Below are positions 1 through 49,970 of a stretch of DNA of 64,000 nt, one piece after another; the first letter of the stretch is position 1, and every line of letters begins with the position of its first letter. The translations under genes and the position numbers were made by a program. The stretch comes from Anaerocolumna cellulosilytica (GTDB lineage: Bacteria > Bacillota > Clostridia > Lachnospirales > Lachnospiraceae): positions 2,419,501 to 2,483,500 of the forward strand of contig NZ_AP023367.1 of NCBI RefSeq assembly GCF_014218335.1. The letters are read 5' to 3'. The notes under the pieces are model-generated. The model was not told the DNA's origin and ran no database searches. It was given only the letters and a program-made list of their open reading frames with translations.

Positions 1-3000
1 CCCAGTGTTCCTCATCATTAGTAGCAGTACATGAAGCCTGCAAGAGTATACTCTCAGGAGAATGCGAGTATGCCCTTGCCGCTGGTGTTAATTTTTTAAT
101 TCCCAAGGATTATTATATCCTGCTTAGCCAAATGGAGGCAGTATCAAAGGATGGCAGTTGTAAGACTTTTGATAAAGAAGCGAATGGCTTTGTATCAGGC
201 GAAGGGATTGGTGTTTTGCTGTTAAAGAGACTGTCTGATGCCATTAAAGACAGGGATAATATACACTGTATTATTAAAGCCAGTGAAGTAAATCATGACG
301 GACGTTCAGCAAGCCTCACAGCTCCTAATAGTAAATCACAAACGGATTTAATAAAAAATTGTATAAATAAAGCAGCTATAAATCCTGAAACAATTACTTA
401 TGTGGAGACTCACGGGACAGGAACTCCCATCGGGGATCCAATAGAGATAAAAGGCTTGACCGATGCATTTTTAGAGTTTAGTAACCGGAAAAGTTATTGT
501 GCTCTTGGTGCGGTCAAAAGCAATATTGGACATCTGGAATCGGCTGCAGGGATGGCTGGTATGATAAAAGTCATTATGGCTATGAAAAATAAAATCATAC
601 CTGGTAATTTACACTTTAATGAAAAAAATCCATTCATTAATTTTGCCGATTCTCCCTTTTATGTATTAGATAAACCGACTGAGTGGCTGGTAAAAGGTCA
701 TCCTTTAAGAGCAGCCGTAAGTTCTTTTGGAATGGGAGGAACCAATGCCCATGTAATATTGGAACAACCGCCGGAGTATGAAGGGTCAGAAATTGTTAAA
801 GACAAGGAGTATCCGGTTATACTGTCGGCAAAGAGTAAGGAAGCATTAAAGATGAGCGTTAACAGGCTTTTAGAATACCTAAAGAAAGCGAAAGACCTAT
901 CTCTTGAGAATGTTTCCTATACCTTGAGTACAGGGAGGTATCATTTTAACAATCGGATTGCCATAGCAGTAGATAGTGTTGGAGACCTAATCGCTGCTTT
1001 ACAGGAGGTTTCTGCGAATGATTTGAAAGAACTTTCATCAAACCGGATATTTTATAACAAAGCGGAAGGCAGTGATGCTATATCTTATCTGAGTATTCAG
1101 GATAAGAGCCCGATTCCTGTGTCCGTAATTTTGCCGTATTACAATAAACAGACATTGGATTTTGTAATAAGGACAATAAACGATGGATTCATAGAAAATC
1201 CAGTATTTTATGAACTATTAAATGAATATAAAGAGATTTTACTTACGATGGGAATCAACCTAAATCATTACTTTACAGGTAACGCCTTATTGTATAGTGA
1301 ATCAGAGACCGTCCTTTGTGTTTATGTATTTATCATTTGCTTATGCAGATGGTTACAAGCATTTGGATTTGTCATAAACAAACTAGTTTCAACAAATGAT
1401 ACACATGGAATTAGAGAAGTATTAAGTGGACAAAAAACGCTGCAAGAAGGTGTATCCTACGTATTAGAGCACGTCAGAGTGCATGAAGTAAGTACGGAAG
1501 ATGAGGAAATCTTAATATCCCTAGTGGAGAATAACAACGGATACATAATTAATTTAAACAATGGATTTGAACAAATTATAACAGATAGGGAAAGCAATCC
1601 AGAACTAATCTTCTCCATTAGCAGGGAAGAGAATGATGGGATAGATGGATTGATACAGATGCTGTCCTCACTGTATGTAAAAGGAGAAGCGGTGCAATTT
1701 AAAGCTCTGTATGCTAAGTCAGTGAGAAAGATTTCCTTACCTGCCTATGCATTTCAGATGAAACGTTATTGGCATAATAAGAATAATTCAATGAAGACGG
1801 CAGCCGCAGAAATAGAAGCAGGATATCAGCTTGCAGAAAAGTATAAGGCAGAAGATTTCTTTTATAAATGGTACTGGCAGGAAGCCTCACCAAATGAAGC
1901 TCTCATACCGGTTGAAGGAGCAGTATGGATTATATTCACTACTTCCGGTTATCTCTCAGACTTAATTCAAAATAGTCTTAAAGAAAGAAAACAAAGGATT
2001 GTATTAGTTTTTAAAGATGTGAGCTTCCGTAAAAGAAACAGTAATGAGTACGAGATGAATCCTAGTAAGCAAGAAGATTATAAAACTGTTTTTTTGGATG
2101 TTATAGAGAAATTCCAAAGCGTGGATGCTGTAATTAACCTTTGGAGTTATAAACAGGAGTCAGAGGATACTTATTATGATAACACGGTAGAGCTTTTTGG
2201 AATGGCATTGGGACTTTCTGAAATCGCTTCTAAGGATAAAGAAATAAATCTATTAACCATAACAGACAATGGGTTCTCACTAGAGGATGTAAATAAGCAA
2301 CCTGTCCATATAAGCAGCTACCCTGTCCACTTATTATCAAGATTAATAACCGGTGAAATCAAAAATATTGCTGCTAGAAGTGTTGATTTGGACAATAACA
2401 AACTTTCAAGGGAACAATTGGATAAGCTCCTTTTTGAGTATTCCTTTACCAGGAACGGATATAGTGAACTTGCTTTTAGAAACGACAAAGCCTTTATACG
2501 AAAGTTAAAAAAAGAGGGGTTGGAGCATACCCATCAAAAAGAGTCTGTTTGGGTAGAAGGAGGGATTTATGTAATTACCGGAGGCGCATCCGGTATTGGA
2601 ACAGAGATTGGTATACATATAGCTAAGGCAGTAAAAGCAACTATCATTTTAATTGGAAGAACGCAGTTGCCTGCTCCGGCTGAATTTGAAGCATTCCTTA
2701 AAAAGGGGACGGACAGCCACAGGATGGCAAAGATAGAAAATATACTTAAAATTAAAAAAGTCGGTGCAGATGTTATCTATTATAAAGCTGATATAACAAA
2801 TGAAGAAAGTACCTTTAGAACGTTTGAAAATATCTTTGCGGTATATGGGCAGATTACAGGTGTTTTTCACTGTGCAGGGAGCAAAAAGGATTCTGTAATT
2901 ACTGTGAAATCTTTCTCCGATTTTAAGGAAGTTATTTCTATAAAAGCATGTGGTTTAAGTTATATAAAAACAGCTGTTAGCAATCATCCGGTTGACTTTA

Positions 3001-3650
3001 TTATAGCCTTTTCATCAATAGCAGCACTTTATGGTACACCTGGCCAGAGTGATTATTCAGCAGCCAACGCAGTAATGGATGCTTTTGTGTCAGATTGGGC
3101 ATTAACAGAGAAAGCGTTTGTAACCTCAATCAACTGGACGCTATGGGAGGGAGCCGGTATGGATATACCTTCACTTGCTAAACGAAAAATGGCAGGCGAT
3201 GGTTTAAGGGCGATTACAATTACAGAAGGCCTGCATGCTTTGGAAATTATATTAAAGCATAGAAAACAGGCGAATTATATTGTTATGGATCTTATGAGAC
3301 CGGAAGAGTTCTTAATGGATTTGGAACATAGTAAAGAGAGAACGCCCATGTCTTATAAAAACGGAATCATAGCTTTGCCCTTGAATGAAATAGCGGAGAA
3401 TGTAGTGTCAGATAGAGCTTTACTTGTAAAAGAGACAAAGGAATTCTTAACCCGGATGCTTGCAAAATTATTATATCTTGATGACTTGGAACTGGATACA
3501 AGGAGGAGTCTAGATGAATATGGCATGGATTCCCTGTCTATTAAGGAAGCGCTAACAGCTCTGGAACAACAGTATAATACAGTGTTGGAACCATCCTTAT
3601 TTGAAGAACACCCAAGTATTGAAGCACTGGCCGAATATTTGTCGACCCGC
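1..3650 (+). other. PKS module M1: KS(partial)-relicAT-KR-ACP
   Basis: The KS triad is complete as far as seen, with Gln instead of the usual Ala before the Cys (QCSSSL). The AT region keeps only the flanking linkers: the start is KS-AT-linker-like and the end is a post-AT linker reading LPAYAFQMKRYW, while the position of GHSxG reads as unrelated VSTNDTHG. The KR has both catalytic residues and keeps an Asp in the stereocontrol loop (KKD), compatible with a B-type KR. Confidence 0.85.
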
Positions 3651-3957: not shown

Positions 3958-6900
3958 ATGAACGACTTTATGATTGAGTATATTTCTGATTTAGTTGAAA
4001 AAAGACAGATACATTACAAGGTAGCAGCCGAGATGGTGAAAGAGATAAACAAGCGGGAAAAAGGAAGGTCAATTGCAAAGTCTTTTTTTGAGAATAATAG
4101 AGATATTGCCGTCATTGGTATGGCAGTAAAGTTCCCCTATGCCGGCAATTTAGAAGAGTTTTGGGAAGTATTAAAAAACGGTGTGTCCTGTATTACTGAG
4201 ATACCTTCCTTACGATGGCCATTAGAGTCTTTTTATGATCCGACGAAACAAAAGGAAAATACAAGTTATTCAAAGTGGGGGGGATTTATTGAAGGTATCG
4301 AAAAGTTTGATGCAGATTTCTTTCATATTTCCGATGAAGAAGCAAAAAATCTTGATCCTCAGCAAAGAATATTTCTTCAGATAGCCTATGAGGCTTTTCT
4401 TATGGCAGGATATCCAATGAAGAGATTATGGGGTTCTAATACAGGGGTTTTCGTAGGAAACCGTGCCGGCGTATACAAAGGCAGTGAGGCATCATCGAAT
4501 AAATACAAGGTTATCAATAATATGGCTAATTTTATACCTGCTAGGATATCTGATTTTTTTAGCTTAAAAGGACCTAGTATTAATATTGATACGGCATGCT
4601 CCTCTTCGTTGGTCAGCGTCCATATGGCTTGTCAGAGTCTTTTGACGGGAGAATGTGATATGGCAATAGCAGGCGGTATTGAGCTTAAGGTTTCACCACG
4701 CTCTTATATTTCACTAAGCTTTGCTGGAGCATTATCTCCTGATGATAAAAGCTATGTTTTTGATAAAAAGGCCAACGGATTTGTACCTGGAGAAGGGGGA
4801 GGGGCAGTTATATTAAAACCCTTACGACAGGCATATAAGGATGGAGATATTGTACTAGGCATTATTAAGGGCTCAGCGGTTAATAATGATGGTCATACCA
4901 TGGGAATAACAAGCCCTAATCTGGAAGGACAAAAGGATGTTTTAAGAAAAGCTTATAGGCAATGCAGTGTTTCACCGGAAGATATTAGCTATATAGAAAC
5001 GCATGGAACAGGAACTACCATTGGTGACCCAATTGAAATAAAAGCATTAAAGCAAACATTCGGTGCATTTACAAATAAAAAAGCATTTTGTGCCGTGGGT
5101 TCTGTAAAAACGAATATGGGTCACCTGGATACGGCGGCGGGAATAGCAAGTTTAATAAAAGTAATTTTATCATTACAACATAAGCAGCTGCCGGCAACCT
5201 TAAATTGTGATGAACCTAATCCTAGATTTGAAATAATTGATTCTCCGTTTTATGTTAATACGAAACTGTCAAACTGGCATTCTTACAATAATAAAAGCAG
5301 ATTTGCTGCCATCAGCTCATTCGGATTTGGCGGAACGAACTGCCATATGGTTATAGCGGAAGGTACAAATGAAAATTTAGTTAGACAAGCCAACCATAAC
5401 GCCAGCCAATTGTTTGTATTGTCTGCGAAATCAGAGGATAGTCTTATGCAGTTGATTGATTCCTATGTCATGTATCTTGAGGAAGCCAGAGAGTATGACT
5501 TGGAAGCAATCTGTAGCTGTGCCTATTTGGAAAGAGATTTTTTTAAGCATAGAATTGCGGTTATTACATCCTCTGTGGAGGATCTAAAGGAAAGATTACA
5601 GGAAATTAAGTTATCGGGCAATCAAAACCCATATTTATATAAAGGATACCTAGAAAGAAAATTTGTGAAAGCGCCTGTCTTTTTATTTACCGGGCAGGGT
5701 GCAATTTATAAAGGCGTTTCTAAAGTATTATCGGAAAAAAGCAGTGTTTATAAAAAGAGTCTAACAGAATGTGAAGAGATCTTAAGACCACATATGAATA
5801 AGTCCTTAACAGACTACCTCTTCTTAGAAGACTCAGTACGTGGAGAATTACAGCAAACAGAAATAATGCAGCCGGTAACATTTGCAGTGGGGTATTCGTT
5901 ATACAAAATGTGGGAAGCAATGGGGCTGCAGCCGGAAGTAGCTATGGGACATAGTGTAGGAGAATACATAGCGTGTTGCATCGCCGGTATGATTGACTTA
6001 AAAGATGCCCTAGAGCTTTTAGTGTGCCGTGGTAAATTAATGCAGAAGCTGGACACTATAGGAACTATGGCAGCCGTATTTACGGATTCTTCCGTAATCA
6101 ATCCTATTATTGACAGGCTGTCATATGAGGAGAGGCAACGTATTGGAATTGCAGCCTTTAATAGTCCTGCTAATACGGTCTTATCCGGTAAAGCTGACAT
6201 ATTAGAGAAGATTCTTGGAATATTAAAACAGTCCGGCATCCATTCCCAATATTTAAGGGTGTCCCATGCATTTCATTCAAAACTTATGGAACCAATGTTA
6301 GGTGAGTTTGGGAAAGCTCTTGACAAGATAACGTTTAAGAAATCACATATCCCCGTTATGTCAAATGTAACCGGTGAGTTAATCTATGAAATTGATAAAG
6401 AGTATCTGTTAAGACATGTGCAGGAACCAGTACATTTTGCAAGTGGTATTAAAAAACTACATGAGCTGGGATACTGTACCTACTTAGAAATCGGACCGGG
6501 AGAGACACTTACCAATTTGGTAAAGAGTAATCTAAACAATGACTACCGAGCAATCAAAACGTTAATAAAAGGCAGTGACGATATCGAGTCAATATTGCAG
6601 GCAAGAGGTTCACTGTTTTGTGCCGGTTATAATCTTCCGGAGTATTTTATTAACAAATCATCACAACGAAAGAGGGTAATACTGCCCGGTTACCAATTTC
6701 AGGAAAAGAGCTATTGGACAGAGCAAAATCACAAAGCCGAACAGATTAAGGGTGAGTTTGCTACTAATCCTAATAGTATACTTAATACCAGTGATAAGAA
6801 TGCTCTTTCCTTCAAGGTAAATATGAAGACTGACAGTACAGCCGTTTATTATAAGAAGTTTTATTGGGATGAAGTCTTCTTAAAGGATCATGTCGTACTT

Positions 6901-9900
6901 GGCAAAGCTATGATTGCAGGTATGGTTTGGCTGGAAGCGGTAAGAACCACTGTGAAAGATTTTATGAATAGGGAAATATCGGGGCTGCAGGAAGTGAGCT
7001 TTCTAAAACCTCTTGTTATAGAAATGAATGAAGTCAAGGAGGTTGAAATAACTGTTGTAAAAAGAGACACAGACCTTGCTGAATTTCAGGTTAAAAGCTT
7101 AGATGATGATGGGGATTGGATTATACATACCAAAGGATTGGCTGTAAGTACAGCTAACAACCTTAATTCAGTAAAAAGCAATAACGTGTTTGCGTTAACA
7201 AACATACTAAGAACGTTAGAGCTAAGGAAAGACAGAACACAAATATATGATATATTTCTGAATAAGATAGGAATTTATCATGGGCCCTTTTTTAGAGGAG
7301 TTAATCAGGTTTACTATAGCGAACATACAGATTTGATAGTAACTGAATTAAATCTGTTGGATGCAGATAGTAAGAGTATAACAGAAGACATGGAGATTGC
7401 CAAAATATATCCCTTAGATACAAGATTGCATCCGGGACTTTTGGATAGTGCTATGCAAGGTATGATAGTTACTGTTATAGATAAAAAGGGAGCTATAATC
7501 AATGACTCTGCCTTTATACCATTTTATTTCAAAAGAATAGAACTTTACTCTGGCGTTGGTGGAAAGTGTTTTGCTATCGCACAGATCAAGAAGAAAAATG
7601 ATGAGTTGATTCAATATGATATTACAATCGTCAATGATAAAGGAGACAATCTGCTCAGAATTACGGATGCTTATGCAAAAAAAGTTCCTAAGAAGGAGAA
7701 CCAGATAAAGGCTGTTCTAGAAAAACAAAACTTAGTACTGGAGGAAGAAAATATTCCTGCGGTCATGTGTTACAAATATCCTGTTTTAAATAAGCTTCCT
7801 TCGCTGGATGCAGATGTGCCTTATTCGAAAGGAACTTTTTTGGTATTTGCTGATAATTCAAACATATGCCGGGAGGTTATATCACAGTTAAACAGTCAGG
7901 GAAAGCATTTGATAAGAGTAGGATATGGTAAAGAATATTGGAAAGACGGGTTAGATACCTATTATATAAATCCCATACAGGAAGAAGACTATCAGGCATT
8001 ATTTCATGATTTAAAAAAGGAAAGAATTGAATTTGAAGGTATCATACATATGTGGAGCCTTCAAGAGAATGAATATGAAGCGGATACTCTAAGTAGCAAT
8101 AGGATAATAGATATTTATGAACAGAAGAAAGTAAGCGGCATTCACTCCATATTTTATATTGCTAAGGCATTTACAAAGGCACATTGGATTAAGACAAGAT
8201 TTTTTGTTTTAACGAGGGCTATCTACCCAATGCTAACGGATAGCGTAGAGATTGATATCTGCCAAGCACCAATACTAGGATTAATAAGAACTATAAGGAA
8301 TGAAATACCAATGCTTAACTGTCAGATAATTGAGAATGACAGATATAATGAGCTGTCTGGGGCTAGGCTTTATACAAAGGAAATTCTATCCGATACGGGG
8401 AACGGTCATGTGCTTATCAGAAATGGGGAGCGGTATGAAATTCAATATACAGATGTAGAGCCAAAAACAGAAGGTGTTTTTAATCAATTTAGAACTGGAG
8501 GTGTTTACCTAGTACTGGGAGGTCTTGGTGGCATAGGCCTTGCGTTAGCCGGTCATCTTGCCAAAAACCAAAGTAAAATCCACCTTGTACTTATTAGCCG
8601 AAATGATAGGAAAGATAAGAAAGAAACAGAACAGTTAAACTTCATACGGAGTAAGGTATTAAGTCTTACTATCATAAGTGCTGATGTAACAGATTTAAAT
8701 AAAATGGCTCAGGTTGTAAATGGAATTAGATCCCAATATGGGCAAATTCATGGAATTATCTATGCAGCCGGGATAATTGCAGATTCTTTTATAATTAATA
8801 AAGAGTTAGCTACCTTCCAAAAAGTAGTAGACACCAAAGCCAAAGGTGTTCTTATAATAGATGAATTAACAAAAAATGACCAATTAGATTTTTTTGTTAT
8901 GTTTTCAAGCATTGCTTCCATTCAAGGAATTATAGGGCAAGCAGATTATGCTTCGGCAAATGCCTTTTTGGATTGTTTTAGTTGGTACCGAAGACAGAAC
9001 AATAGGACTGGTAAAAGTATTTGTATTAATTGGGGACTATGGTCAAAGGTTGGTATGGGAAATAATGCGCTGACATTGGAGAACGCCAGAAAAGAAAGGG
9101 TGCAGCTCATTGATCCTATAGAAGGTGTGGAAGCATTTTTTCATTCAATTTCTATAAATAAAGGGCAGATAATCATTTATAAAGGGGAGCGGCCAAGTAT
9201 GGATGAGAAAAAGGAAAAGGTAGAAAAGCCATTGGTGGATAGAAAAAAAATAAGTGATAACATGAAAAAACTATTAATGCAGATGGTTTTAGAAGCAGTA
9301 GAAAAAACTGAAATAGCACAGGTCGAATGGGAAGAAAGTACTTTTCTTGAGATGGGCATGGACTCTGCTGATTTAGTTAAAATGATTGCGAACCTAGAAT
9401 TGAAACTAGGACTTAAACTATATCCCACATTATTCTTTGAATACCCCACAGTAGATGAACTCTCCAATTATCTTTCAGTGGAATGCGCCAACCAAACATA
9501 TACAGGACAAGTAAGTATATTGAACAGCGAGGTATCAAACGATGAGCAATTTACAATTCATAAAGCGGCCTTTCGTCTCGATGATATATTGAATAAAACA
9601 AAGCAGGTTGAGGCAGTACCGGAAGCATTATATACAGAAAGAATATCGGATAACAGAGCAGCTAAAGCCCCGTTAGAAGATACATTGAAACAGATAGAAA
9701 AAAGCACAAGTAGAGAAGAAGAGCCAGTAAAAGAGGTGGATGCAACAGTAGATACAGATATGGCTATTATCGGTTATGCTCTAAAACTACCGGGTGCAAA
9801 TAATGAAGAAGAATTTTGGGAGAATCTTAAAGATGGCGTGGATTCTGTCACTAAGGTTCCGGATAATCGATGGGATGCAGATAAATTATATAGTGCAGAT

Positions 9901-41100: not shown

Positions 41101-44100
41101 AGACCTTTGATAATACAGCAGATGGATATGTACGAGGAGAAGGATGTGGGGCGGTTTTATTAAAACCCTTGAAGCAGGCACTGTTAGACCGTGATAATAT
41201 AGTAGCCGTTATTAAAGGCAGTGCGGTTAATCAGGATGGGCATACCAACGGTTTAACAGCTCCTAATGGATTAGCGCAGGAAAAGGTAATCAGAAAGGCT
41301 CTAAAAATGGCAGAGGTAAACCCGGAGGACATAACCTATATCGAAGCCCATGGCACGGGAACACCCCTTGGGGATCCCATAGAGCTTAGAGCTTTGACCA
41401 CTGTGTTTAGAGACTTTACGGACAAAAACGGATTTTGTGCCGTCGGTTCCCTTAAGACCAATATAGGGCATCTAGAGCCTGCTTCAGGGATTGCGTCACT
41501 TATTAAAGTTATTTTGTCATTGAAAAATAAAGTAATATTTCCTTCCTTACATTTTAATAAACTTAATAATCACATAGAAATAGCAGATTCACCTTTTTAT
41601 TTTCCGGATAAAGCTAAATCATGGTCCGGTATAGTAGGTAAAAGAAGGGCAGGCGTCAGTTCCTTCGGATTTGGCGGAACCAACGCTCATGTAATCCTTG
41701 AAGAGGCACCTGAATGCATGGATATGCCGGTAAGGAATCAGGAATTATCCTATCTATTTACAGTGTCAGCTGGGAATACGGCCTCTTTATTCCATAATGT
41801 GGAAAAATTGTATCGCTTTTTACAGCAGCCTATGGAGAAATTCATAGCCGGAATCAGCTATACGTTAACCGCCAGGCGGAAACATTTTTCGCATCGGATA
41901 GTATTTTTGGCAAAGGATATGGCTGAAATTGTTTATAAGCTGGAATATATCTTATCGGTAAGAAGTGAACAGAGTAACAATCAATACGGATATTCCGTTG
42001 TTAAGACCAATAAAATTGCCAATACGTTCGGAAGCAACACTTTAGAACCGGAAATTTTACTTGGACTTCAAACAGAGAACCCCCATAGTATGGTGCGTGC
42101 ACAGACATTAGAAAAATTAATACAGATATATCTGTCAGGCGAAAAAATAGAGTGGGAGAATCTATTTACAGAAGAAGAAAAAATCATGGTTCCGCTGCCG
42201 GCGTATGGATTTCATGAAGAAAGATATTTTACCAATAAGGGTTATACGGAGTTTAAAGTCACAAGTGAACAAGACGGTCCGAATGAGGAAGATGCTAATA
42301 CTTCTTATGGTATTAATACAGAAGTGATAGAAACTATAGCTGAGGAAGTTTTACAATCTGATAGTTATTCCATAGAAGCTTTAACAGACCGGATTGGCGG
42401 TATCTTTACAAAGGAGCTCATTAATAAGTTAAACTTTAAGGAAAGTCAGATTGATATAGATTCCAGCTTAATGGATTACGGCTTTGACTCCATCTTCGCA
42501 GTATCGGCAGTTAATTTGTATGAGGAAAAGGCAGGCATACAGTTAGATCCAACCATTTTATTTGACTTTGCATCCATCAGGGAATTTTCTTTGTACCTTG
42601 CAAAAGAGTATACAAGGGAGTTTCAAAGGTATTTTTCGGAAATAGAAGACAACATGGAAGATAGTAAAAAAGATGTTGCAGGAATTACCGAACAAAAGCA
42701 AGTATATAAAGAAGATGCTATGATTATTAATGATTTCGAAAATGTTATGCCGGAAGAAAAGGCCTTTAACAAGCAATGGCAGGAAGGAATGGATATAGCC
42801 GTTATAGGATATGCCGGAAGATTTCCGAAAAGTGAAAACATTTCAGAATACTGGGAGAATCTAAAAACAGGCTTTGACGGAATCTCTTCCTTGCCAAAAG
42901 AACGTTATACTTATGGGAAAGCAGAAAAAAGTGATGCCCTAAAGCAGGTATTATCCGGCTATGTTAGAGATGCCCACAGTTTTGACCCTCTGCTTTTTAA
43001 TATTTCCGGAAAAGAAGCAGATTATATGGACCCACAGCAAAGGCTTATGTTGGAAGTAGTATGGGAGACCTTAGAACAGGCAGGATATAACGGAAAAGAG
43101 CTTTCTGAGATAAAAACGGGCGTTTTTATCGGGGCAAGTAATAAGGACTACTCTTATTTAATCAGTGAAGAAGGGGAGTTTAACCCTTATATGGGAACTG
43201 GCAATGCCTTATCGGTTATTGCGAATCGGATATCGTATAGCTTTAATTTGAAAGGACCAAGTATGGCAATTGACACAGCCTGCTCCTCCTCTTTAGTAGC
43301 TATCCATTTGGCTTGTCAGAGTCTTAAGACAGGTGAATGCCAGGCTGCCATTGCGGGTGGTGTAAATCTTTTGCTGGATTATGATAATCAAGCGATATTT
43401 GAAAAAGCAGGGATGATTGCAAAGGATTACCATTGTAAAACCTATGATGAATCCGCCAATGGCTATGTAAGAGCAGAGGGGGTTGGTGCTGTCTTGCTAA
43501 AACCCCTGACCGACGCAAGGAGAGACGGAGACACAATCCATGCTGTCATAAAGGGAACCGGCGTAAATCAAGATGGTAAATCAAACGGATTAACAGTACC
43601 CAATGCCAAATCACAGATTGAGCTTTTATGTGAAACATGGGAGAGGGCAGGAATTCAGCCACAATCCATCAGCTATCTTGAGAATCACGGAACTGGGACT
43701 TCCTTAGGAGATCCCATTGAGATAAGGGGAATTACCGAAGCATTCAAGCGTTATACGGATAAAAAGGCTTTCTGCGCTATAGGTTCTGTGAAAAGTAATA
43801 TAGGACACTTGGAGCCAGCCTCAGGCATTGCAGGCATCCTCAAAGTAATATTGGCTATGAAGTATGGCTCTCTTCCTCCAACCATACACTTTAGAAAGCC
43901 AAATAAAAAAATTAATTTTACGGATTCACCAATTTATGTAAATGATAGATTTGCATCTTGGCAAACCATAGACGGAACGCCAAGAAGAGCTGGTATCAGC
44001 TCCTTTGGCTTTGGAGGAACGAATGCACATATTGTATTAGAAGAACCCCAGAATATAACTCCAGAACACAGGAAAGAGTTAACCCAAAAAGCGTGTCTGT

Positions 44101-45515
44101 TTACCCTGTCAGGAAGAAGTCAGAAGCAACTTCAAAAATATGTAACTGATATTACTGCCTATATTCGGAAAAATAAAGAAATTGAGCCATATGACCTATG
44201 CTATACTCTGGCCACCGGCAGGCAGCAGATGGGTCATACGGTGGCCGTATGTTTTCAGAACAAAGAAGAGCTGCTTCTTAAGTTAGGCCAGATGATACAA
44301 AACCAATTGAATAGTAGCGGGAGTATTATGAGCAGCAGTTATGAGGTGAAACAACGACAGCCCATGGTTTTTATGTATACCGGGCAAGGATCTCAATATA
44401 AGGGGGCAGGATATGAACTTTATAAGACAGAACCTGTATTTAAGTCAGCACTGGATAAATGTGAACAATTACTTATGCCATACATTAATCATAAACTAAC
44501 AGATTTATTATATGCAAAGGAATATGATGCTGCCTTACTGAACCAGACCAATATAGCACAGCCGCTTATCTTCTCCTTTGGGTATGCGTTAACTAACTTA
44601 TTAAAGGAATGGGGCATTAGACCGGATATTGTTATGGGACATAGTGTGGGTGAGTATGTAGCGGCTGTTACAGCAGGAATACTTTCTCTGGAAGATGGGA
44701 TGAAACTCATTGCAGAAAGAGGACGGATTATGAATTGTGTAGAAGAAGAGGGGCAAATGTATGCTGTTTTTGCAGATGTCGATTTGGTTAAAACCTACTT
44801 AAAAGAGTATTCTCCCAAGAGTGTAAGTATTGCTGCAATCAATACTGCGAATAACGTTGTAATATCAGGGGCTTCGGATGTGGTACGGGAACTGGCGGAA
44901 CGATTAACAAAGGACAACATAAAAGTTACTAGATTGGCTGTATCAAATGCATTTCATTCACCGATTATGAATTCCATTACAGAGGAATTCAGAGCATTAG
45001 CAAATACGATTGGATATAAAAAACCAGCAATTCCAATCGTATCAAATGTTGATGCCGATATCTTTATGAATAAAACCTTTCATGCCGAGTATCTGGTTAA
45101 GCATTTACTACAGCCTGTGAAGTTTATGGACAGTATAAAACTGCTGTATGAAAAGGGGTATAGAGTTTTCGTTGAAATAGCGGGCGGTCAGACTTTGGTT
45201 AATATGTGCAAGGATATACTAAAGGATAAAAAGGATTTTCAACTGATACCAACACTACGTTCTTATAAAAGCAGCCGGGAATCCATTAACGAAGCACTGG
45301 GACAATTTTATACCTTAGGCTGTAAAGTGGACTGGAATAAGGTTTATTTCTGGAATAAAGGCCGGAAAATACCCCTCCCCCCCTATCCTTTTGATAAAAA
45401 AACGTATTGGTTTAAGGATTTAGGGGAGAGAAAGGAAGGTTGTAAGACAGAAGCTGAAATTAAGAAGGAAGCAGCAGATGGCTTAATATTAAAGGGTAAA
45501 AGAATCAATGCATAG
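32124..45515 (+). CDS. Giant modular PKS, M8-M10 plus KS-AT of M11, 4463 aa
   Basis: Order: docking helix, KS-AT-ACP (M8), KS-relicAT-DH-KR-ACP (M9), KS-ACP without AT (M10), KS-AT (first part of M11). The ATG at 32124 is preceded by GGGAGGTGA and overlaps the upstream stop. The N terminus MLKNIELILAELEEGKLTPD is docking-like. The protein ends shortly after the AT post-linker (LPPYPFDKKTYW) without ACP and without the docking tail found on the other PKS proteins; the missing M11 domains are on the next two genes. The linker before the M10 KS (about 40340-40460) has short imperfect Tyr-Asp-Lys-rich repeats. M8 carries the second copy of the near-identical AT cassette. Eighteen bases separate this gene from the free-standing dehydratase gene. 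Confidence 0.97.
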   Translation: MLKNIELILAELEEGKLTPDKAYSMIYEKKGKETSGIEEGNNEIAVIGLSCRFPNADTMDAYWDILSEGKSCIKAIPKERWDFNHELEKKGIKPTSSMCRVGGFLKEIENFDAAFFDISNQEACLIDPQQRLLLEVVQEGIEHAGYCHKSFSGSNTGIFIGARDGKYEPVTADEHKNARVRLTGTLGNFNAARISNYFNLKGPSLVYDTACSSSLISTHYACKSILAGECDMAIAGGVHLCVNADTYISLNLMNQTLSKNGKCYAFDRRAEGFVPGEGVGIVVLKPLNKAIKDRDTIYAVIKGSAVNNDGYTIGETTPDLDAEQQVLERALQDAKVDAATISLIEAHGTGTMIGDPIEVRALAKAFNEYTDKKSFCALGSVKTNIGHLDTAAGIASLIKVILALYYKKIPPTQNIDMPNPRINFVDSPFYPAAYLEDWKPVQGVRRAGVNSFGFGGTNCHMILEEGRENQYLDQEENDRSRQLFLLSAKSGEALEKAAETYANYLAKRESENLGNICYTTGTSRRFFDNRLALICSDTRELKEKLKGIEFLTGECKTPGKVTFLFTGQGALYSNLAKELYERQPVFKEALNSCDRIFNQLSGTSLLALLYESDGTVLKETAVTQPVTFAVSYALARMWMAFGVTPEAVLGHSAGEYAAACIAGTFSLEDGLKLITWRGKLMQEKCRRGAMAALMCSRERAEDFLKELTEEEQKTVSIGAHNGETNTVISGEQETIAVLIKKAEAEKIRAVYLEVSHGFHSPMMLPMLRDYEKILEEVDFRENQIPIINGVTGERIKGQILSKEYWLQHVLAPVNFYKAIKICEAEEMEILLEVGAGNILSNMAKKIINKKDICIMPTLVRGVPDWHTIQEAMASLYVRGVTLEYEVYDKGYQRRRIALPTYPFNVKKQQESIGNVSKEDVILSPKPIREEKYKIFQTVKAKDKVEHLLMQMIAKVSTVTSDSITATDTFLNMGLDSNSLIYIASEIEKEFHITFVPSAFFEYQSIEKLAEFLTEEYGDKLHLCKEKTDTVKVPVAQPMISSDVEKDQSEWQRTSTNDIAVIGMAGQFPEAENLEIFWDNLKRGMDCVTDIPASRLDLETYYNCDKKAENKTYLKRTGLLKTVELFDPEFFNISPKEAKDMDPQQRLLLQGAYHTLESGGYAGDCLSGSDTGIFVGVAHTQYKEEIPYINTFTPLGNHEAMLANRLSYFLNFNGPSMVVNTQCSSSLVAVHLACKSILNGECTQALAGGVMAVFNPIYYLSGSKLQAFSLEGKCKTFDKQADGYVPGEGYGMVLLKPLKKALEDSDKIFAVIKGSAVNHGGKANNVSAPNAKAQEMVINGALANAGLTADDISYIEAHGTGTVLGDPVEIRALTAAYQRETKKRGYCGIGSLKSNIGHLESAAGIAGIIKVILSMQHKELPPTIHFNQLNPFIDILNSPFYINDTLGEWKCEGPRRAGVSSFGMGGTNAHIILEEAPVSKKAKLKDRKRDSYNILTLSAKHKEGLEELAVSYKELLKTDNSYDLQDICYSAGTGRGHYEYRLALVADTKNQAIEALGNFVQGMQDTGSYYYGEKQNVLKISLWCTGNLKKETCAKIMVQLYQEVERYQAIIDSISKVLEKHGISFLKYIKEKEWFLREQKTKDEQVWRFMAFVYEYALGKLLEAVKIIPAAIGCEEEGVYTAACLTGFLDVEEAVLLLLKDKAESTGKMNEIREALREGWREDTDCTIYLGYLTGAESSDTNTYMPTNKYAAEEDEITKKSCNLYAQILTYLYAMGADIDWRCVYEQHRAKKVELPLYPFRKKSFWLQKAEKKDSVKLSESSQPDLWDVRGASVKEEVYDIRILKQDENLRSFKLEQNTTLNQLFSQHKVQNEQIMPATGYVDIMLFLLEKYYEKLPSVFKAVTILDRITYEHLKDGALLIECEESNKGIDFSIYRRAYEGKDSKKTKCVTGKAIFLKPELQEPLPVGRIEDTDTENAKAIEGKEIYRAYEGIGMDYGNSFKGIQSILISQNSFVTYLHLEEQKPLAYFHCHQGMLDSGLQSIIAASLLKEEDTAETYFPFYYQSIAFFGKLQEKDYICYGKIKEEAGNVSSNIKCDINIYSLDGKRLIAIEDFTVMKKQKYPQTDKKITLSEDTFRFLYGLRWEKMNLEAYKRARPESGKWLVFSSDTPWTASLIKEFYRHGQNCIRLSATDNKRHLLERLKQEYADIKGIIYNGVSDTKGNPLISEACFYGEESTALRELFQLAKSLADHTGKSIDFITISGDAMDIENKQTEVNPLSASLWGLTKVMDLEIKNLKARCIDFDLSGINESLYCVSAVREIIYGVDKYVLYSGGNRYISGVYPLKKEVEKTSKIRANGVYLITGGLGDIALETGKYLAKQYQVKLAFLTRTALPDRKYWEHTIQGSSRDSKRIKAIQEIEALGSEVKILTCDVTKEEEVKASIDLVKASYGRINGVFHMAGIIKDRIIIFKSWEDMVEVMAPKVIGGELLCKLLVKDRPDFMVWYSSISAITGNLGQGDYAAANAYLDALASKYKSAHNIISINWTLWEQIGMGTNLVDRQKANGVKPIRNQTAMEVMEYSLLGQYKQVLAANLEEYVSVKPIKEEAASAKEPAVISYAENRSISPQEAKVKIAVYIVKFLCNTLEYGEEDIGTDTSFSELGIDSILGVELIQKIEEVLKVSFNPTIIYDYPNIALLSEYIAANYLEEVKESSIDNEAKVIAAEIDTSEESVLYKTAVNEPIYSCNVIYEEKEIYDKEKSHDKKGMYDENATYDKKDLYNVEDIAIIGMSYTFPGMDEEKDFLQLLAKGDNGIKPFPKDRGLSPREREDKEEDFFGGYIEKVYDFDPLFFNITPKEAELMDPQQRKILKITWEAVEIAGYANRIQGSETGVFIGISTNEYQTIAGEHHSQVGTGNALSIAANRISYFFDLKGPSLSIDTACSSSLVAVDAACANIRLGNCEMAIAGGVNLILTYNTTKVFKEAGMLSRDGKCKTFDNTADGYVRGEGCGAVLLKPLKQALLDRDNIVAVIKGSAVNQDGHTNGLTAPNGLAQEKVIRKALKMAEVNPEDITYIEAHGTGTPLGDPIELRALTTVFRDFTDKNGFCAVGSLKTNIGHLEPASGIASLIKVILSLKNKVIFPSLHFNKLNNHIEIADSPFYFPDKAKSWSGIVGKRRAGVSSFGFGGTNAHVILEEAPECMDMPVRNQELSYLFTVSAGNTASLFHNVEKLYRFLQQPMEKFIAGISYTLTARRKHFSHRIVFLAKDMAEIVYKLEYILSVRSEQSNNQYGYSVVKTNKIANTFGSNTLEPEILLGLQTENPHSMVRAQTLEKLIQIYLSGEKIEWENLFTEEEKIMVPLPAYGFHEERYFTNKGYTEFKVTSEQDGPNEEDANTSYGINTEVIETIAEEVLQSDSYSIEALTDRIGGIFTKELINKLNFKESQIDIDSSLMDYGFDSIFAVSAVNLYEEKAGIQLDPTILFDFASIREFSLYLAKEYTREFQRYFSEIEDNMEDSKKDVAGITEQKQVYKEDAMIINDFENVMPEEKAFNKQWQEGMDIAVIGYAGRFPKSENISEYWENLKTGFDGISSLPKERYTYGKAEKSDALKQVLSGYVRDAHSFDPLLFNISGKEADYMDPQQRLMLEVVWETLEQAGYNGKELSEIKTGVFIGASNKDYSYLISEEGEFNPYMGTGNALSVIANRISYSFNLKGPSMAIDTACSSSLVAIHLACQSLKTGECQAAIAGGVNLLLDYDNQAIFEKAGMIAKDYHCKTYDESANGYVRAEGVGAVLLKPLTDARRDGDTIHAVIKGTGVNQDGKSNGLTVPNAKSQIELLCETWERAGIQPQSISYLENHGTGTSLGDPIEIRGITEAFKRYTDKKAFCAIGSVKSNIGHLEPASGIAGILKVILAMKYGSLPPTIHFRKPNKKINFTDSPIYVNDRFASWQTIDGTPRRAGISSFGFGGTNAHIVLEEPQNITPEHRKELTQKACLFTLSGRSQKQLQKYVTDITAYIRKNKEIEPYDLCYTLATGRQQMGHTVAVCFQNKEELLLKLGQMIQNQLNSSGSIMSSSYEVKQRQPMVFMYTGQGSQYKGAGYELYKTEPVFKSALDKCEQLLMPYINHKLTDLLYAKEYDAALLNQTNIAQPLIFSFGYALTNLLKEWGIRPDIVMGHSVGEYVAAVTAGILSLEDGMKLIAERGRIMNCVEEEGQMYAVFADVDLVKTYLKEYSPKSVSIAAINTANNVVISGASDVVRELAERLTKDNIKVTRLAVSNAFHSPIMNSITEEFRALANTIGYKKPAIPIVSNVDADIFMNKTFHAEYLVKHLLQPVKFMDSIKLLYEKGYRVFVEIAGGQTLVNMCKDILKDKKDFQLIPTLRSYKSSRESINEALGQFYTLGCKVDWNKVYFWNKGRKIPLPPYPFDKKTYWFKDLGERKEGCKTEAEIKKEAADGLILKGKRINA
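32250..35175 (+). other. PKS module M8: KS-AT-ACP
   Basis: The KS Cys is at 32754. The AT has Ser 34077 (GHSAGEY) and HGFH ending at His 34398, as in M4. The ACP follows the AT directly, with Ser 35049. Its relatives M2, M4 and M6 all have DH and KR, so these were lost here or never present. Confidence 0.9.
33399..34834 (+). repeat. AT cassette repeat, copy 2 (in M8)
   Basis: Direct copy of 15481-16916 (constant offset 17918). The first 60 or so bases are less alike, then identity is close to complete until TYPFN, where this copy runs on as VKKQQES against GKKYWAT in M4. The copies share the same orientation and reading phase. Confidence 0.92.
35290..40235 (+). other. PKS module M9: KS-relicAT-DH-KR-ACP
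   Basis: The KS Cys is at 35787 in NTQCSSSL, the same unusual Gln as in M1. The AT relic (about 36590-37550) reads IGCEEEGVY where GHSVGEY is expected. The DH has His 37722 (HKVQNEQIMP) and Asp 38229 (HQGMLDSGLQ). The KR has Ser 39642 and Tyr 39681, but its nucleotide loop reads GGLGDIAL, with the third Gly replaced by Ala. The ACP Ser is at 40116. Confidence 0.86.
40465..42610 (+). other. PKS module M10: KS-ACP, AT deleted
   Basis: The KS Cys is at 40944 (DTACSSSL), with HGTGT and NIGHLE. Between KS and ACP only about 170 residues remain: the KS-AT linker start, then a shortened join to a post-AT linker (LPAYGFHEERYF). The ACP Ser is at 42489 (GFDSIFA). Confidence 0.87.
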
Positions 45516-47545
45516 GTACAGGGAGAAAGCAGAATGGAGAATCAGAATCTAGGAACCTACAAAACTGTATTATCAGCAGAGCAGGATATAGTATCAGACC
45601 ATAAGTTTCAGAAGGATTACGTTGTACCGGCAGCAGTTTACTTGGCTATGGTTAAGGAAGCTTTTGTAATTAACACTTCTTCCAATGAGTTGGAATTTTT
45701 AGAAGTTTCTATATTAAATGCCTTAATCATAGAACAGGATGTGCCTGTAAATGTTTTTGTCGAGCTGGAACAAGACGGTGCGGTATATCGATTTAAGGTA
45801 GTAAGTCAGAAACTGGATAAAAATAGCTTGCATGTATATGGGAAAATAAGAGAATCCTCTTTTCAGAGAGAGGATTCCTTACTCCTTACAGAAATTCAGG
45901 CACGATGTAAGGAGTTTATTGAAAAAGAGGCGTTTTATAAAAGATATGAACGGAGTGGTATTTATTATGGGAAATATTATAAAACCGTTCAGGAGGTACA
46001 TCAGAATATCTTTGAATTTATATCGGTAATCGAATCTGAGAAGATAAATGATAAAAGCCCTTTATATCCACTCTCCATATTCCCAGCCTACATGGACGGA
46101 GCTATACAATCCATAGGGTCCATTTACAGAGGAGATGAAAAGATTATATATGTGCCGAGCTTCATCAAAAGAATCAGAATATTAAAAATTCCTACAGGTA
46201 AATGTTATTGTTATGGAACAACGTATACAGATAGTTCTAAAAATCCTGAAAAGCTAGTATATGACTTAACCGTATGTGATGAAAGAGGGATGGTTGTCAT
46301 GGAATTGTCACAGTTTGAGATGAAGAGATACATAATAGGTCTTAGATAATGGGTTTTCAAACACACCCTGGCAAGAAACAGTATCTCATCGATAAAGAGG
46401 GAGTACTTTATGGAAACATTTGAAATTGAATTAAATCTTTTAGAGCATGATGTAGTTAAGGATCATGTGATTTCCGGTTTGACTATCCTTCCCGCTGCTG
46501 CCTATATGGAACTAGTACTTGCTAACTTTGAGCATTTCAATGCAGAGTATGGTGTAACGCTAAAAAGAATTAAATTTAATACACCGATGATATTTTCAAA
46601 CAGCAGTACAAAAAAAGTACATATTACTTATGAAAATGCAGGAAGCCTTTATAAATTCCAAGTATTGTCCCTAAATGAAGAGGGTGGTTTTATAGGGCAT
46701 GTAGAAGGTCAGGTGGAAGAAGCAAAGGAAGAGTTATCACCTTGCAATCTCTTAAACGTGAATGAAAGTGATGGAAAATACCTTGGGAAAGAAGAGGTAT
46801 ATGAAATGTATAAGGAAGCCGGACTTTCCTACGGGCCATTTTTTAGATGTATTGAGAGTATTTGGATGCATGAGAAAGAAGTGTCTGCAAAGTTAGGTAT
46901 TCCAACTGGAAGAACGGATAAGAACAGGGTCTATCTTCTTCACCCGGCAGTATTAGACAGTGCCTTTCAGGCAGCGGGGCTGCATACATTTTATGAGCAA
47001 GGAAACAGGGTTTATTTACCATATTATATAGAAGAGATTATTTACCGGAAACCTTTTGAAGAGATATCTATATGCCGCAGCAAGCAAAGGGATACGAATT
47101 CAGAACAATCACCTGTCAAACGATATGATATCTCTCTGTATGACACGAAAGGAAATGGCTGTGTACATATAAGGGGACTTACGATAAAGTCACTGGATAA
47201 ACCGGTAGGTAGCTCAAGTAAAGCGGAGGAATCCCAAGTAGTGTCATACAGCAAAGAGAAGACGCTAAGCGACACGAAAGTAAAGCCAAAAACCATTGAT
47301 GGTAGTAATAAATCGGAAGTAGCAGATAAGGTGATTGAGGTATTATCAGAAGTGTTACATATTGATAAGAGCGAATTTGATTTAAGAGCTGTCTTTGGTG
47401 ATTACGGCGTAGATTCCATTATTGTAGAAGAGCTTTTGGGAAAACTGAATGGGGAATTCGACGTTATACTGGATGCCACGATACTATTTGATTATCCCAC
47501 CATAGATGCATTAAGTGAGTATTTGACAAAGATAGCTGGTAAGTC
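42785..47545 (+). other. PKS module M11, split: KS-AT / DH / DH-ACP
   Basis: KS (Cys 43281, HGTGT after Asn) and AT (Ser 44643 in GHSVGEY; NAFH ending at His 44955) are at the end of the 4463-aa protein. A free-standing DH (His 45600, Asp 46095) is the next gene, and a second DH (His 46464, Asp 46956) with the ACP (Ser 47415) starts the gene after that. No ketoreductase belongs to this module. Confidence 0.8.
45534..46349 (+). CDS. Free-standing PKS dehydratase-fold protein, 271 aa
   Basis: A single hot-dog dehydratase domain of the type I PKS kind, encoded alone. The N-terminal half has His23 in HKFQKDYVVPA (HxxxGxxxxP with Lys for Gly) and the C-terminal half has Asp188 in FPAYMDGAIQS, so both catalytic residues are present. 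The ATG follows GGGAGA and lies 18 bases after the 4463-aa PKS gene; another DH-starting PKS gene begins 60 bases downstream. It has no docking helix, which suggests tight complex formation with the flanking M11 pieces. It may dehydrate, isomerise a double bond, or form a ring ether as some DH relatives do; the lack of a ketoreductase in M11 makes isomerase-type action worth considering, but this is inference. Confidence 0.85.
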   Translation: MENQNLGTYKTVLSAEQDIVSDHKFQKDYVVPAAVYLAMVKEAFVINTSSNELEFLEVSILNALIIEQDVPVNVFVELEQDGAVYRFKVVSQKLDKNSLHVYGKIRESSFQREDSLLLTEIQARCKEFIEKEAFYKRYERSGIYYGKYYKTVQEVHQNIFEFISVIESEKINDKSPLYPLSIFPAYMDGAIQSIGSIYRGDEKIIYVPSFIKRIRILKIPTGKCYCYGTTYTDSSKNPEKLVYDLTVCDERGMVVMELSQFEMKRYIIGLR

Positions 47546-49970
47546 TATTAAGGCAGCTAAGGAAGTGACGAAAAGCAATCTTTCTCAATTCACAATTCCT
47601 GCAAGTAATGAAGGAGAAAGAGCGGTAAAAGAAATCGTATTAACTGGTAACAAAACTAAAAATGAGTTACCTGAATTGGAAAAAGAGAAGGGAGAGGGGG
47701 CATATGAGATTGCAGTAATCGGTATGTCCGGTCGATTCCCTGAAACAGAGGATGAGGAAGAATTTTGGGATTTCATATGTGAAGGAAAGTCAGCAATTAC
47801 TGAAATTCCTAAAAGCAGATGGAATAACGATACCTTCTATTCAGAAGATTCAGACGCGCCGGGCAAAACAGATTGTAAGTACGGGAGCTTTCTTCACGGT
47901 ATTGACGAATTCGACCCAACTTTTTTTGGAATCTCTGTTAATAAAGCACCGATGATGGATCCCCAACAAAGGTTAATGCTAGAAGTAGCCTGGAAGGCAG
48001 TGGAGGACGCAGGTTACAGCAATGGAAGCCTGGCTAAAACCAGAACAGGGGTGTATATAGGAATTTGTAACAATGAATATGTCCATCTTGGTGAGAAAGC
48101 CTATGAAAAACTATCGCCTCACGTAGCAGCCGGCAATGCTTTTTCTATTGTTGCGAATAGGATATCCTACGTCTTAGATGTTAACGGGCCTAGCATGGCT
48201 ATCGATTCCGCTTGCTCCTCCTCCATGGTAGCACTGCATAATGGATGTAGGGATATTATTGCAGGGGAATGTGAAATGGCATTAGTCGGTGGCGTTAATC
48301 TTACCTTAGCACCTGAGAATCACATTATCTTCTCAAAAGCAAAAGTGTTATCAACGGATGGAAAAATAAGATCCTTTGATGAACAGGCAAATGGTTATAT
48401 AAGGGGGGAAGGAGTCGGTGCCCTACTTTTAAAACCACTTACTAAGGCATTGGAGGATGGTGACAATATTCATGCTGTAATTAAAAGCACCTCTATAATG
48501 CATGCAGGAAAGTCAAACGGTCTAAATACACCAAATCCTGTTTCTCAGAAAAAGGCGATACAGGAAGCTTATATAAAATCCGGTATCGCTATGGAATCAA
48601 TATCTTACATAGAAACACATGGTTCAGGGACAGAGCTTGGGGACTATTCTGAATTCAGGGCAATGTCCGATGCTTTTAAACAGATGACAAATAAAAAGCA
48701 ATTTTGTGCAATAGCAACGGTAAAGGCAAATATCGGTCATGCAGAATCGGCCGCTGGGGTTTTAGCAATTATAAAAGTAATTTTGTCATTACAAAAGCGT
48801 AAACTTCCACCCTTAATTCATTTTGAAAGAAAGAACAAAAAAATTGATATGGTTAATTCGCCCTTTTATGTGAATAGTAAATTATCCGATTGGATACCGA
48901 ATGGAGAAATCCGTAGAGCAGGGATAAATTGTTTTGGCTTTGGCGGTACTTATGCACATGTAATCTTAGAAGAATATGTTGACAAGTCTGATGACAGTAG
49001 AAAAGAGAATGATAAAGGGTATCTGCTTACGTTGTCTTCTCAAAGTAAAGAAACATTAGTAGAGATAAGTAAACATATAAAAGAGTATATTGATAAAAGA
49101 GGAGCAGAAATGAATCTTTCCGACTTGTGTTATACTCTGGCAAGCAAAAGGGAGCATTACAATTATCGGATAGCACTGGAAGGTGAAACAGTAGGTGAGC
49201 TAAAAGAAAAACTGGAGGATCTAGCAGAGAATGGGGTCGGTAGCAAGGAAATTTTTTATGGTGGCAAGGAGAATAAAAGGCCGAAGCAGCTTCTTATCTT
49301 TCATCAGGCAGCACCCGGTATAAATGACATAGTATGTTTTTACAATAGCTCCTTCTTGTATCAAAAAATAGTTCAGGAGCTGGTGAATGAATTGCCTGCT
49401 GATTATAAAGAAACCATTCAAAAATATGTGATAGACCAGAACTATAACCCAATGATAGGCGAAGAAGAGGAATGGGTGCTGGCAATTGTTCATAATGAGG
49501 CAGTATACCATACGCTAAAACAGATAGGAGTGAAAGTAAATGGTCTGTATGGTGTAGGTAAAATTGGTGTGACTTCTTCGCTGCTTATAGCAGGAGTTAT
49601 CAATTCCAAGGATTTGAATCTGATATACAGAGATAAGATGACTCCAATCAATCGAGACAGTAGTACGAACGAATTATTGAAGTGGTTCATGGAAGGAATA
49701 GACATTACGGTTCCGGAACCAATTACAATCAGTCAGTGGTTGGAGCATTGGAATGAGGAGGCGTTAGCAAGTCTTATACAAAGGCAGCCAAAGCTTAACC
49801 TTATAAAAAGTGAAACATTATCTACTTTTAAGGGCTTTAAAAGGGCAGTGGCAGAGTGTTATGTACAAGGAATGAACCTAAACTGGACAAGTTATTATAT
49901 GGGAGAACAGCATAAAACGGTTAGTGCCCCGGGATATGTGTTTAGCCATAAAACTTATTGGCATATATGA
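46410..49970 (+). CDS. PKS: DH-ACP (end of M11) and KS-relicAT (M12), 1186 aa
   Basis: The protein begins at once with a dehydratase whose motifs are canonical: His19 in HVISGLTILP and Asp183 in HPAVLDSAFQ. An ACP follows with Ser336, then a KS (about 432-860) with Cys602 in DSACSSSM, HGSGT instead of HGTGT and NIGHAES, then a relic AT to the end. In the relic the nucleophile motif reads LYGVG, Ser being replaced by Gly (codon 49551); the last residues are the post-AT linker APGYVFSHKTYW. There is no ACP, thioesterase, reductase or condensation domain after it, so how the chain leaves is not visible. The ATG at 46410 follows GAGGGAG. The next gene starts 15 bases downstream. Confidence 0.94.
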   Translation: METFEIELNLLEHDVVKDHVISGLTILPAAAYMELVLANFEHFNAEYGVTLKRIKFNTPMIFSNSSTKKVHITYENAGSLYKFQVLSLNEEGGFIGHVEGQVEEAKEELSPCNLLNVNESDGKYLGKEEVYEMYKEAGLSYGPFFRCIESIWMHEKEVSAKLGIPTGRTDKNRVYLLHPAVLDSAFQAAGLHTFYEQGNRVYLPYYIEEIIYRKPFEEISICRSKQRDTNSEQSPVKRYDISLYDTKGNGCVHIRGLTIKSLDKPVGSSSKAEESQVVSYSKEKTLSDTKVKPKTIDGSNKSEVADKVIEVLSEVLHIDKSEFDLRAVFGDYGVDSIIVEELLGKLNGEFDVILDATILFDYPTIDALSEYLTKIAGKSIKAAKEVTKSNLSQFTIPASNEGERAVKEIVLTGNKTKNELPELEKEKGEGAYEIAVIGMSGRFPETEDEEEFWDFICEGKSAITEIPKSRWNNDTFYSEDSDAPGKTDCKYGSFLHGIDEFDPTFFGISVNKAPMMDPQQRLMLEVAWKAVEDAGYSNGSLAKTRTGVYIGICNNEYVHLGEKAYEKLSPHVAAGNAFSIVANRISYVLDVNGPSMAIDSACSSSMVALHNGCRDIIAGECEMALVGGVNLTLAPENHIIFSKAKVLSTDGKIRSFDEQANGYIRGEGVGALLLKPLTKALEDGDNIHAVIKSTSIMHAGKSNGLNTPNPVSQKKAIQEAYIKSGIAMESISYIETHGSGTELGDYSEFRAMSDAFKQMTNKKQFCAIATVKANIGHAESAAGVLAIIKVILSLQKRKLPPLIHFERKNKKIDMVNSPFYVNSKLSDWIPNGEIRRAGINCFGFGGTYAHVILEEYVDKSDDSRKENDKGYLLTLSSQSKETLVEISKHIKEYIDKRGAEMNLSDLCYTLASKREHYNYRIALEGETVGELKEKLEDLAENGVGSKEIFYGGKENKRPKQLLIFHQAAPGINDIVCFYNSSFLYQKIVQELVNELPADYKETIQKYVIDQNYNPMIGEEEEWVLAIVHNEAVYHTLKQIGVKVNGLYGVGKIGVTSSLLIAGVINSKDLNLIYRDKMTPINRDSSTNELLKWFMEGIDITVPEPITISQWLEHWNEEALASLIQRQPKLNLIKSETLSTFKGFKRAVAECYVQGMNLNWTSYYMGEQHKTVSAPGYVFSHKTYWHI
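47705..49960 (+). other. Terminal PKS module M12: KS-relicAT without ACP
   Basis: KS Cys codon at 48213. Variants near the active site (DSAC, HGSGT, GGTYAH in place of GGTNAH) set it apart from the other eleven KSs. The AT remnant has no nucleophile. With no carrier protein on the same chain, this KS must hand on to a separate ACP or act as a transferase or release domain. Confidence 0.85.

Follow-up and report, generated by a model that had tools for sequence, protein, structure and literature searches.

The window analysed here is a stretch of 64,000 nucleotides from the single-contig genome of Anaerocolumna cellulosilytica (5,430,627 bases), covering genome positions 2419501-2483500; subtraction of 2419500 converts a genome coordinate into a window coordinate. 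The window cuts a longer PKS line that begins at genome position 2391347, ~28 kb before the window, and ends at window position 49970. The complete line consists of seven large proteins (A to G) and one free-standing DH, with 17 KS domains and seven intact ATs, and the frames of all seven large proteins are open over ~78 kb. We number the modules K01-K17 over the whole line, the M1-M12 of the preliminary description of this DNA being K06-K17.

According to the domain search, proteins A (K01, KS-relic-DH-KR-ACP-ACP; K02, KS-relic-KR-ACP) and B (K03, KS-AT-DH-KR-MT-ACP; K04, KS-relic-OYE-KR-ACP) are encoded upstream of the window, and the C-terminal part of protein C (K05, KS-AT-DH-KR-ACP; K06, KS-relic-KR-ACP) lies within it. 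The PKS features in the window are all on the forward strand. K06 (M1), the end of protein C, occupies positions 1..3926, with the linker and relic AT at ~945-1877; its KS starts 493 bases ahead of position 1, and the AT-bearing partner, K05, is upstream. Protein D comprises K07 (M2, KS-AT-DH-KR-ACP, 4099..9756, intact AT 5677-6627), K08 (M3, KS-relic-KR-ACP, 9757..14319, relic ~11254-12111, KR catalytic residues kept), K09 (M4, KS-AT-DH-KR-ACP-ER, 14320..20817, intact AT 15889-16845) and K10 (M5, KS-relic-ACP, 20818..23625, relic ~22300-23112). The enoyl reductase of K09 (19858-20745) is placed after the ACP and not between DH and KR. Protein E carries K11 (M6, KS-AT-DH-KR-ACP, 23851..29334, intact AT 25447-26406) and K12 (M7, KS-relic-ACP, 29335..32130, relic ~30802-31569), and protein F carries K13 (M8, KS-AT-ACP, 32247..35288, intact AT 33807-34763), K14 (M9, KS-relic-DH-KR-ACP, 35289..40466, relic ~36771-37598), K15 (M10, KS-ACP, 40467..42791, linker only with no AT remnant) and, at its end, K16 (M11, KS-AT, 42792..45515, intact AT 44367-45263). 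The free-standing DH (45534..46349) lies between K16 and the next ACP and is followed by protein G (46410..49970), which consists of DH-ACP and then K17 (M12, KS-relic, linker and relic ~48993-49967). The ACP of K16 is encoded on this next protein, and M11 is apparently spread over three proteins (KS-AT, free DH and DH-ACP; 42792-49970). The line ends with the KS and relic AT of K17 without an ACP or thioesterase; two thioesterase genes are present upstream of the line, as is an FkbH gene.

The preliminary description had assigned intact ATs to M2, M4, M6, M8 and M11 and relic or missing ATs to M1, M3, M5, M7, M9, M10 and M12. This is borne out: the former match PF00698 with 147.5-204.4 bits and the latter give no PF00698 match at E 0.001, M10 being a case of a missing AT and not of a relic. 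Over the whole line both catalytic motifs, GHSxGE[YF] and S[HN]xFHS, are found in 7/7 ATs and neither of them in any of the 10 other modules. Behind the KSs of K01, K02, K04, K06, K08, K10, K12, K14 and K17, the alignment to the seven ATs extends over the linker, some of the AT core and the YPF-like motif that follows the AT. The serine of GHSxG and the histidine of FHS are absent from all nine relics, and the corresponding region of K15 is the linker alone. From K02 to K14, that is over 13 modules, AT and non-AT modules strictly alternate. An alternating run of at least 13 occurs in 17 of the 19,448 possible placements of seven ATs in 17 modules, a figure to be taken as a rough guide only, the modules being kin by descent.

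The relics are half-way states in a cis-to-trans series of lengths, measured from the KS to the next domain found, with overlapping loci of one genome counted twice in places. The KS-to-DH length is 466-487 aa in five AT modules of the line, 323 in K01 and 367 in K14; in other loci its median is 482 where an AT is present (33 modules) and 197 where there is none (48 modules). The KS-to-ACP length is 379 aa in K10, 388 in K12 and 230 in K15, the medians in other loci being 500 (15 modules with AT) and 219 (35 without), and the KS-to-KR length is 564 aa in K02, 596 in K06 and 642 in K08, with medians in other loci of 722 (25 with AT) and 420.5 (14 without); in K04 it reaches 941, an extra domain included. 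Some AT-less modules elsewhere equal the relics in length, e.g., 371 aa in a Bacillus relic. The extra domain of K04, which follows the relic AT and precedes the KR, belongs to the NADH:flavin oxidoreductase (old yellow enzyme) family (PF00724, 4.6e-35; L011 ~10339-11226, genome 2410339-2411226) and is, to our knowledge, an unusual partner within a PKS module. The possibility that the relic regions represent some other domain type was ruled out, since the K08 relic matches, at the sequence level, proteins of known KS-AT or AT structure (CurL 4mz0, 6e-22; ZmaA 4qbu, 4.6e-14) and Pfam at E 0.001 finds no other domain in these regions apart from the one in K04. As a probe against 299 genomes of the family, drawn from a larger group, the K08 relic matched its own genome and five others, in the latter weakly (29-44% over short stretches), and yielded no orthologs.

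The line does not conform to a cis-AT PKS with an AT in every elongation module (10 of 17 modules are without one), nor to a trans-AT PKS from which ATs are absent throughout, in view of the seven intact ATs. AT-bearing and AT-less modules stand together in one line (7/17 vs 10/17), as in hybrid cis/trans-AT PKSs, of which kirromycin is an example (PMC5818483) and in which, according to the accessible parts of the sources, the AT-less modules need an outside AT. Such hybrids account for 122 PKSs and 351 PKS-NRPSs in a set of 8799 lines (PMC10394414), and the clostridial lines CcelB, CpapD and CpapF are also mixed (PMC3250452). The earlier statement that no line of this kind had been described is thus too broad for mixed lines as such, going by the portions of these two papers at hand, and stands for the regular alternation: no paper was recognised as describing it in our literature search, most subscription journals lying outside its scope. 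Unlike the known hybrids, the present line shows a 13-module alternation, nine half-eroded ATs and a cluster without a discrete AT. With trans-AT PKSs, e.g., that of bacillaene (PMC11907408, in the part available), it has in common the AT-less modules, trans-type ACP scores, a PfaD-family gene and the LPTYPF exchange point, and it differs from them in its seven intact cis ATs and the lack of a discrete AT gene in the cluster. Three further mixed lines are present in one Holophagae genome (G299), which was reached via a KS resembling the query and so gives no estimate of frequency for all lines: the first repeats a no-AT, AT order three times over six KSs (L109, L110; G299:C30:208001-248000), the second reads AT, none, none, AT, none, AT, and the third relic, AT, none. 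Mixed cis/trans lines are already known; the regular alternation with half-eroded ATs is, as far as our literature search goes, new among them.

The relic modules retain the catalytic equipment for chain extension. As had been noted from the window, they keep complete KS triads (Cys and both His in 17/17 KSs of the line, with the His motifs HG[TS]GT and [NS][IM]GH also in 17/17) and ACP serines (17/17 ACPs aligned). Non-elongating KS0 modules are defined by the loss of a catalytic KS His, and none of the 17 KSs shows this loss. In an alignment judged by eye, the KRs of the relic modules K01, K02, K04, K06, K08 and K14 retain Lys, Ser, Tyr and Asn; a KR acts on the keto group that results from condensation in its own module, and it is therefore very probable that these six modules carry out an elongation and that their ACPs require an extender unit. 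In K03, an AT module with a methyltransferase domain (L010 12027-18920), the catalytic Tyr of the KR is replaced by His (SNHTGAN). The preliminary description had also considered that the second module of each pair might only pass the chain, i.e., that relic modules hand it on without elongating. The reduced architecture of K10 and K12 (only KS, relic and ACP) and of K15 (only KS and ACP) would suit such a role, whereas the 17 intact KS triads and the six relic modules with their own catalytic-residue-bearing KRs speak against it; it is unlikely for these six modules, and as an account of the relic modules in general we regard it as highly improbable. No reductive domain stands behind the KS in K10, K12, K15 or K17, the last being also without ACP, and the KR argument does not extend to these four; here elongation is suggested by the KS triad together with the ACP where there is one, which counts against the explanation that we favour below. 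The sequence features of the KSs do not divide as cleanly as had been proposed: NNDG[HY]T[MI]G and GGTNCH[MV] do occur in M2, M4, M6 and M8, but they are not private to them, as M7 has GGTNCHV, K04 GGTNCHS and M5 NNDG, and M11 has an intact AT yet a KS of another type (NQDG, GGTNAHI).

The ancestry of the domains was examined in a tree of 203 KSs and in smaller trees with 26 of the 37 KSs of 11 chosen loci, the 17 KSs of the line and eight (in one tree seven) others of the genome. The predicted grouping of the M2, M4, M6 and M8 KSs was recovered, joined by K03 and K05, with a support of 0.999 in the large tree and 99 in the smaller ones. The same group also holds five KSs of L022-L025, which belong to other phyla (Desulfobacterales, Flavobacterium, Streptomyces), that are AT-less in the sense of having no AT match behind the KS, four of their frames ending within 350 aa; on their own, the KSs of K03, K05, K07, K09, K11 and K13 group weakly (0.76 in the 203-KS tree, 79 in a smaller tree). 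The KS of K16, behind which an intact AT lies, groups with those of K02, K12 and K15, i.e., with KSs of non-AT modules; the KSs of K01, K04, K06, K08 and K14 fall together with one from Holophagae, and K10 is loosely placed. The ten non-AT KSs together with K16 and two Holophagae KSs form one group at 90 in one smaller tree, and the 203-KS tree joins nine of these at 0.796; the grouping is absent from the other smaller tree, and a constraint to one clade of all ten non-AT KSs, with the K09/K13 tract described below left out, is not rejected (p-AU 0.065). The seven ATs form one cis-type group apart from the discrete ATs (0.958; 0.951 for the six without K16). In the ACP tree the six AT modules K03-K13 make up one group (81 SH-aLRT) and seven other ACPs, including that of K16, another (81), while the ACPs of K01, K14 and K15 are unplaced.

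If modules had been copied in pairs, as was supposed from the window, the partners should mirror each other in the KS tree. They do so for K03-K04/K05-K06, where K03 pairs with K05 and K04 with K06, and here the tree supports duplication of an AT module together with its relic neighbour. For K07-K08/K11-K12 and K09-K10/K13-K14 the best trees do not bear it out: K09/K13 are sisters at 98 and K07/K11 at 83, but K10/K14 and K08/K12 are not sisters. With the K09/K13 tract left out, however, neither K10 and K14 (p-AU 0.165) nor K08 and K12 (p-AU 0.451) are rejected when held together. The tract just mentioned comprises the C-terminus of the KS, the linker, the AT and the post-AT linker, at 15475..16925 in M4 (K09) and 33393..34843 in M8 (K13), both on the forward strand; the two copies of 1,451 bases are 97.7% identical in DNA and end just after LPTYPF, and the KSs before the tract share ~61% amino-acid identity. 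Judged from these identities, the tract is a natural exchange of an AT cassette. LPTYPF has been proposed as a point of recombination in trans-AT systems (PMC11260071, in the part accessible to us).

We consider that the locus probably encodes a hybrid cis/trans-AT line in which chain elongation takes place in the relic modules too, with a discrete transferase charging them in trans. Seven modules would load malonyl via their embedded ATs; the other ten would have lost the AT, nine keeping a remnant and one being trimmed clean, and the KS of each of these ten would condense a malonyl unit put on the ACP by a transferase from outside the module, which may be FabD or one of the discrete ATs encoded at other PKS loci of the genome. 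Malonyl as the unit is suggested by the FHS-type motifs of the ATs, and we infer both the loading in trans and the enzyme responsible. In favour of trans supply we count the cis-to-trans length series, the trans-type ACPs, the position of the AT-module KSs among AT-less KSs and the PfaD-family gene ~4 kb upstream of the line (TIGR02814, 575 bits vs a cut-off of 449). PfaD-type trans-acting enoyl reductases are frequent, though not universal, in trans-AT PKSs. In an HMM test whose training sets comprised, after removal of duplicates, 61 cis and 91 trans ACPs (cross-validated AUC 0.95; the training loci are related and the test is not independent of ancestry), 17/17 ACPs score as trans-type with -10.5 to -23.0 bits; the ACPs of the AT modules do so too, and it counts against trans supply that the test does not tell relic from AT modules. 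The absence of a discrete AT from the cluster also weighs against it: no AT match beyond the seven cis ATs is present in genome positions 2379501-2493500. Most trans-AT lines have a discrete AT in the cluster. The genome as a whole does contain four discrete ATs, all outside the cluster, namely a 309-aa frame near a FabF-like KS and an ACP, which we take to be FabD, and three more that are divided between two further PKS loci and have frame lengths of 775, 475 and 421 aa. Also in favour of trans supply is the make-up of a second locus in this genome, a PKS-NRPS (4.48-4.55 Mb; L005-L007, 4494000-4553999), where a single cis AT stands beside two relic ATs and two discrete ones; the longer relic has GIGIG instead of GHSxG and no His region, and the other relic is shorter. 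According to the part of PMC6164871 available, a malonyl-CoA:ACP transacylase rescued a DEBS module with a null AT in vitro, which makes a FabD-type supply possible.

The preliminary description had also raised the possibility that the upstream AT loads both ACPs, so that the intact AT of a pair would serve not only the ACP of its own module but also the one in the relic module on the same polypeptide, and the bimodule would be the loading unit. Proteins B-F each combine at least one intact AT with relic modules in a cluster without a discrete AT, and an AT-less/AT order recurs three times in the first Holophagae line, the KSs of which are similar to those of the relic modules described here. 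Protein A, in contrast, is devoid of ATs and contains only KR-bearing relic modules (K01, K02), which this mechanism fails to explain, and protein G has a relic only; sharing within a polypeptide is therefore not the whole story, while a trans-acting source could serve all relic modules. Discrete ATs do exist in the genome, and one AT would have to serve the ACPs of two groups in the tree, which is weak evidence. Taken together, we regard such sharing as possible and yet rather unlikely, and we would only tentatively entertain the idea that an embedded AT charges two ACPs per polypeptide as its normal state, with the partner AT kept as a scaffold only.

A parallel to the relic modules, which we count in favour of the preferred explanation, is found in the amicoumacin synthase. 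The open frames of a Bacillus safensis S-11 locus (L088, genome G303), of 3039, 900, 1501, 2416 and 2141 aa, match by size AmiI-AmiM of B. safensis CB729 (3029, 889, 1500, 2410 and 2136 aa; PMC12366304, in the part consulted), and an eroded AT lies behind the first KS of the 2416-aa frame, AmiL. A search for this relic in 44 genomes of the genus gave a match in 14: ten, including G303, hold the relic with 61-100% identity, in G314 and G342 the line is present with an AT of greater length, and the matches in the remaining two are weak and lie elsewhere. In G314 and G342 this AT is near full length, with GRGFG for GHSxG and AYQS for AFHS, and the AT of the first AmiL module is dead or eroded in 12/12 Bacillus genomes of the set that hold the line (L119 6975-8054; L133; L135). 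A PF00698 search outside the ami line found one AT of 316-324 aa, which we take to be FabD, in each of 11 genomes (the ten with the relic and G342; completeness of the assemblies unstated), and further discrete ATs in G314. As in the Anaerocolumna line, the first module of AmiL consists of KS, dead or eroded AT and ACP and is followed by an AT module in one protein; unlike it, AmiL has one such module among the five of an NRPS-PKS with a known product (PMC4894447, PMC12366304, PMC5055758). The dead AT is not mentioned in the portions of these three publications that were available.

The line has five KSs, one of them in the module with the dead or eroded AT, and the available part of the published amicoumacin scheme proposes five malonate residues (PMC4894447). 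On this analogy the dead-AT module should elongate, with malonyl from FabD or from a neighbour's AT, which again speaks against a mere passing on of the chain. A dead-AT module can thus apparently be served without a dedicated trans-AT, and the case fits FabD and the neighbour's AT equally: the position of the module (eroded in ten genomes, dead in G342) before intact AT modules, with a sole discrete AT of FabD size, favours sharing, and the lack of any other discrete AT in the 11 genomes counts against trans supply.

The varying degree of AT erosion among the modules and the KR of K03 without its Tyr might also be taken for signs of a decaying line, no longer functional and in the course of losing its ATs. 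This we regard as the least probable of the readings and a very remote one, as the seven large frames are open over their whole length, the KS and ACP sites are kept, and in AmiL purifying selection acts on what is left of the AT core, if less strongly than on the KS. The median dN/dS over 45 pairs from ten genomes is 0.29 for the core, 0.05 for the KS and 0.23 for the linker, and the core has three gap columns in 180 aa; the set includes G321, whose AmiL frame is short (1290 aa), and the values describe the AmiL relic alone, there being no K08 orthologs among the 299 family genomes.

The origin of trans-AT from cis-AT lines and the service of a neighbour by an embedded AT are, as far as we know, open questions, and the present line displays intact, half-eroded and fully trimmed ATs next to each other. 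The amicoumacin parallel adds a known product and Bacillus hosts, convenient for laboratory work, in which it can be asked who loads a dead-AT module. If bimodule loading were true, AmiL, whose product is known, would provide another example of it, and the Holophagae line might be one as well. Either AT sharing or FabD supply would, if true, be of use in engineering.

Directly after the PKS, at window positions 49986-52472, lie two adjacent genes of the 2-hydroxyacyl-CoA dehydratase / benzoyl-CoA reductase family; the subunits that they encode resemble HadC and HadB, with scores below the NCBIfam cut-offs, and point to a possible tailoring step of the radical type.
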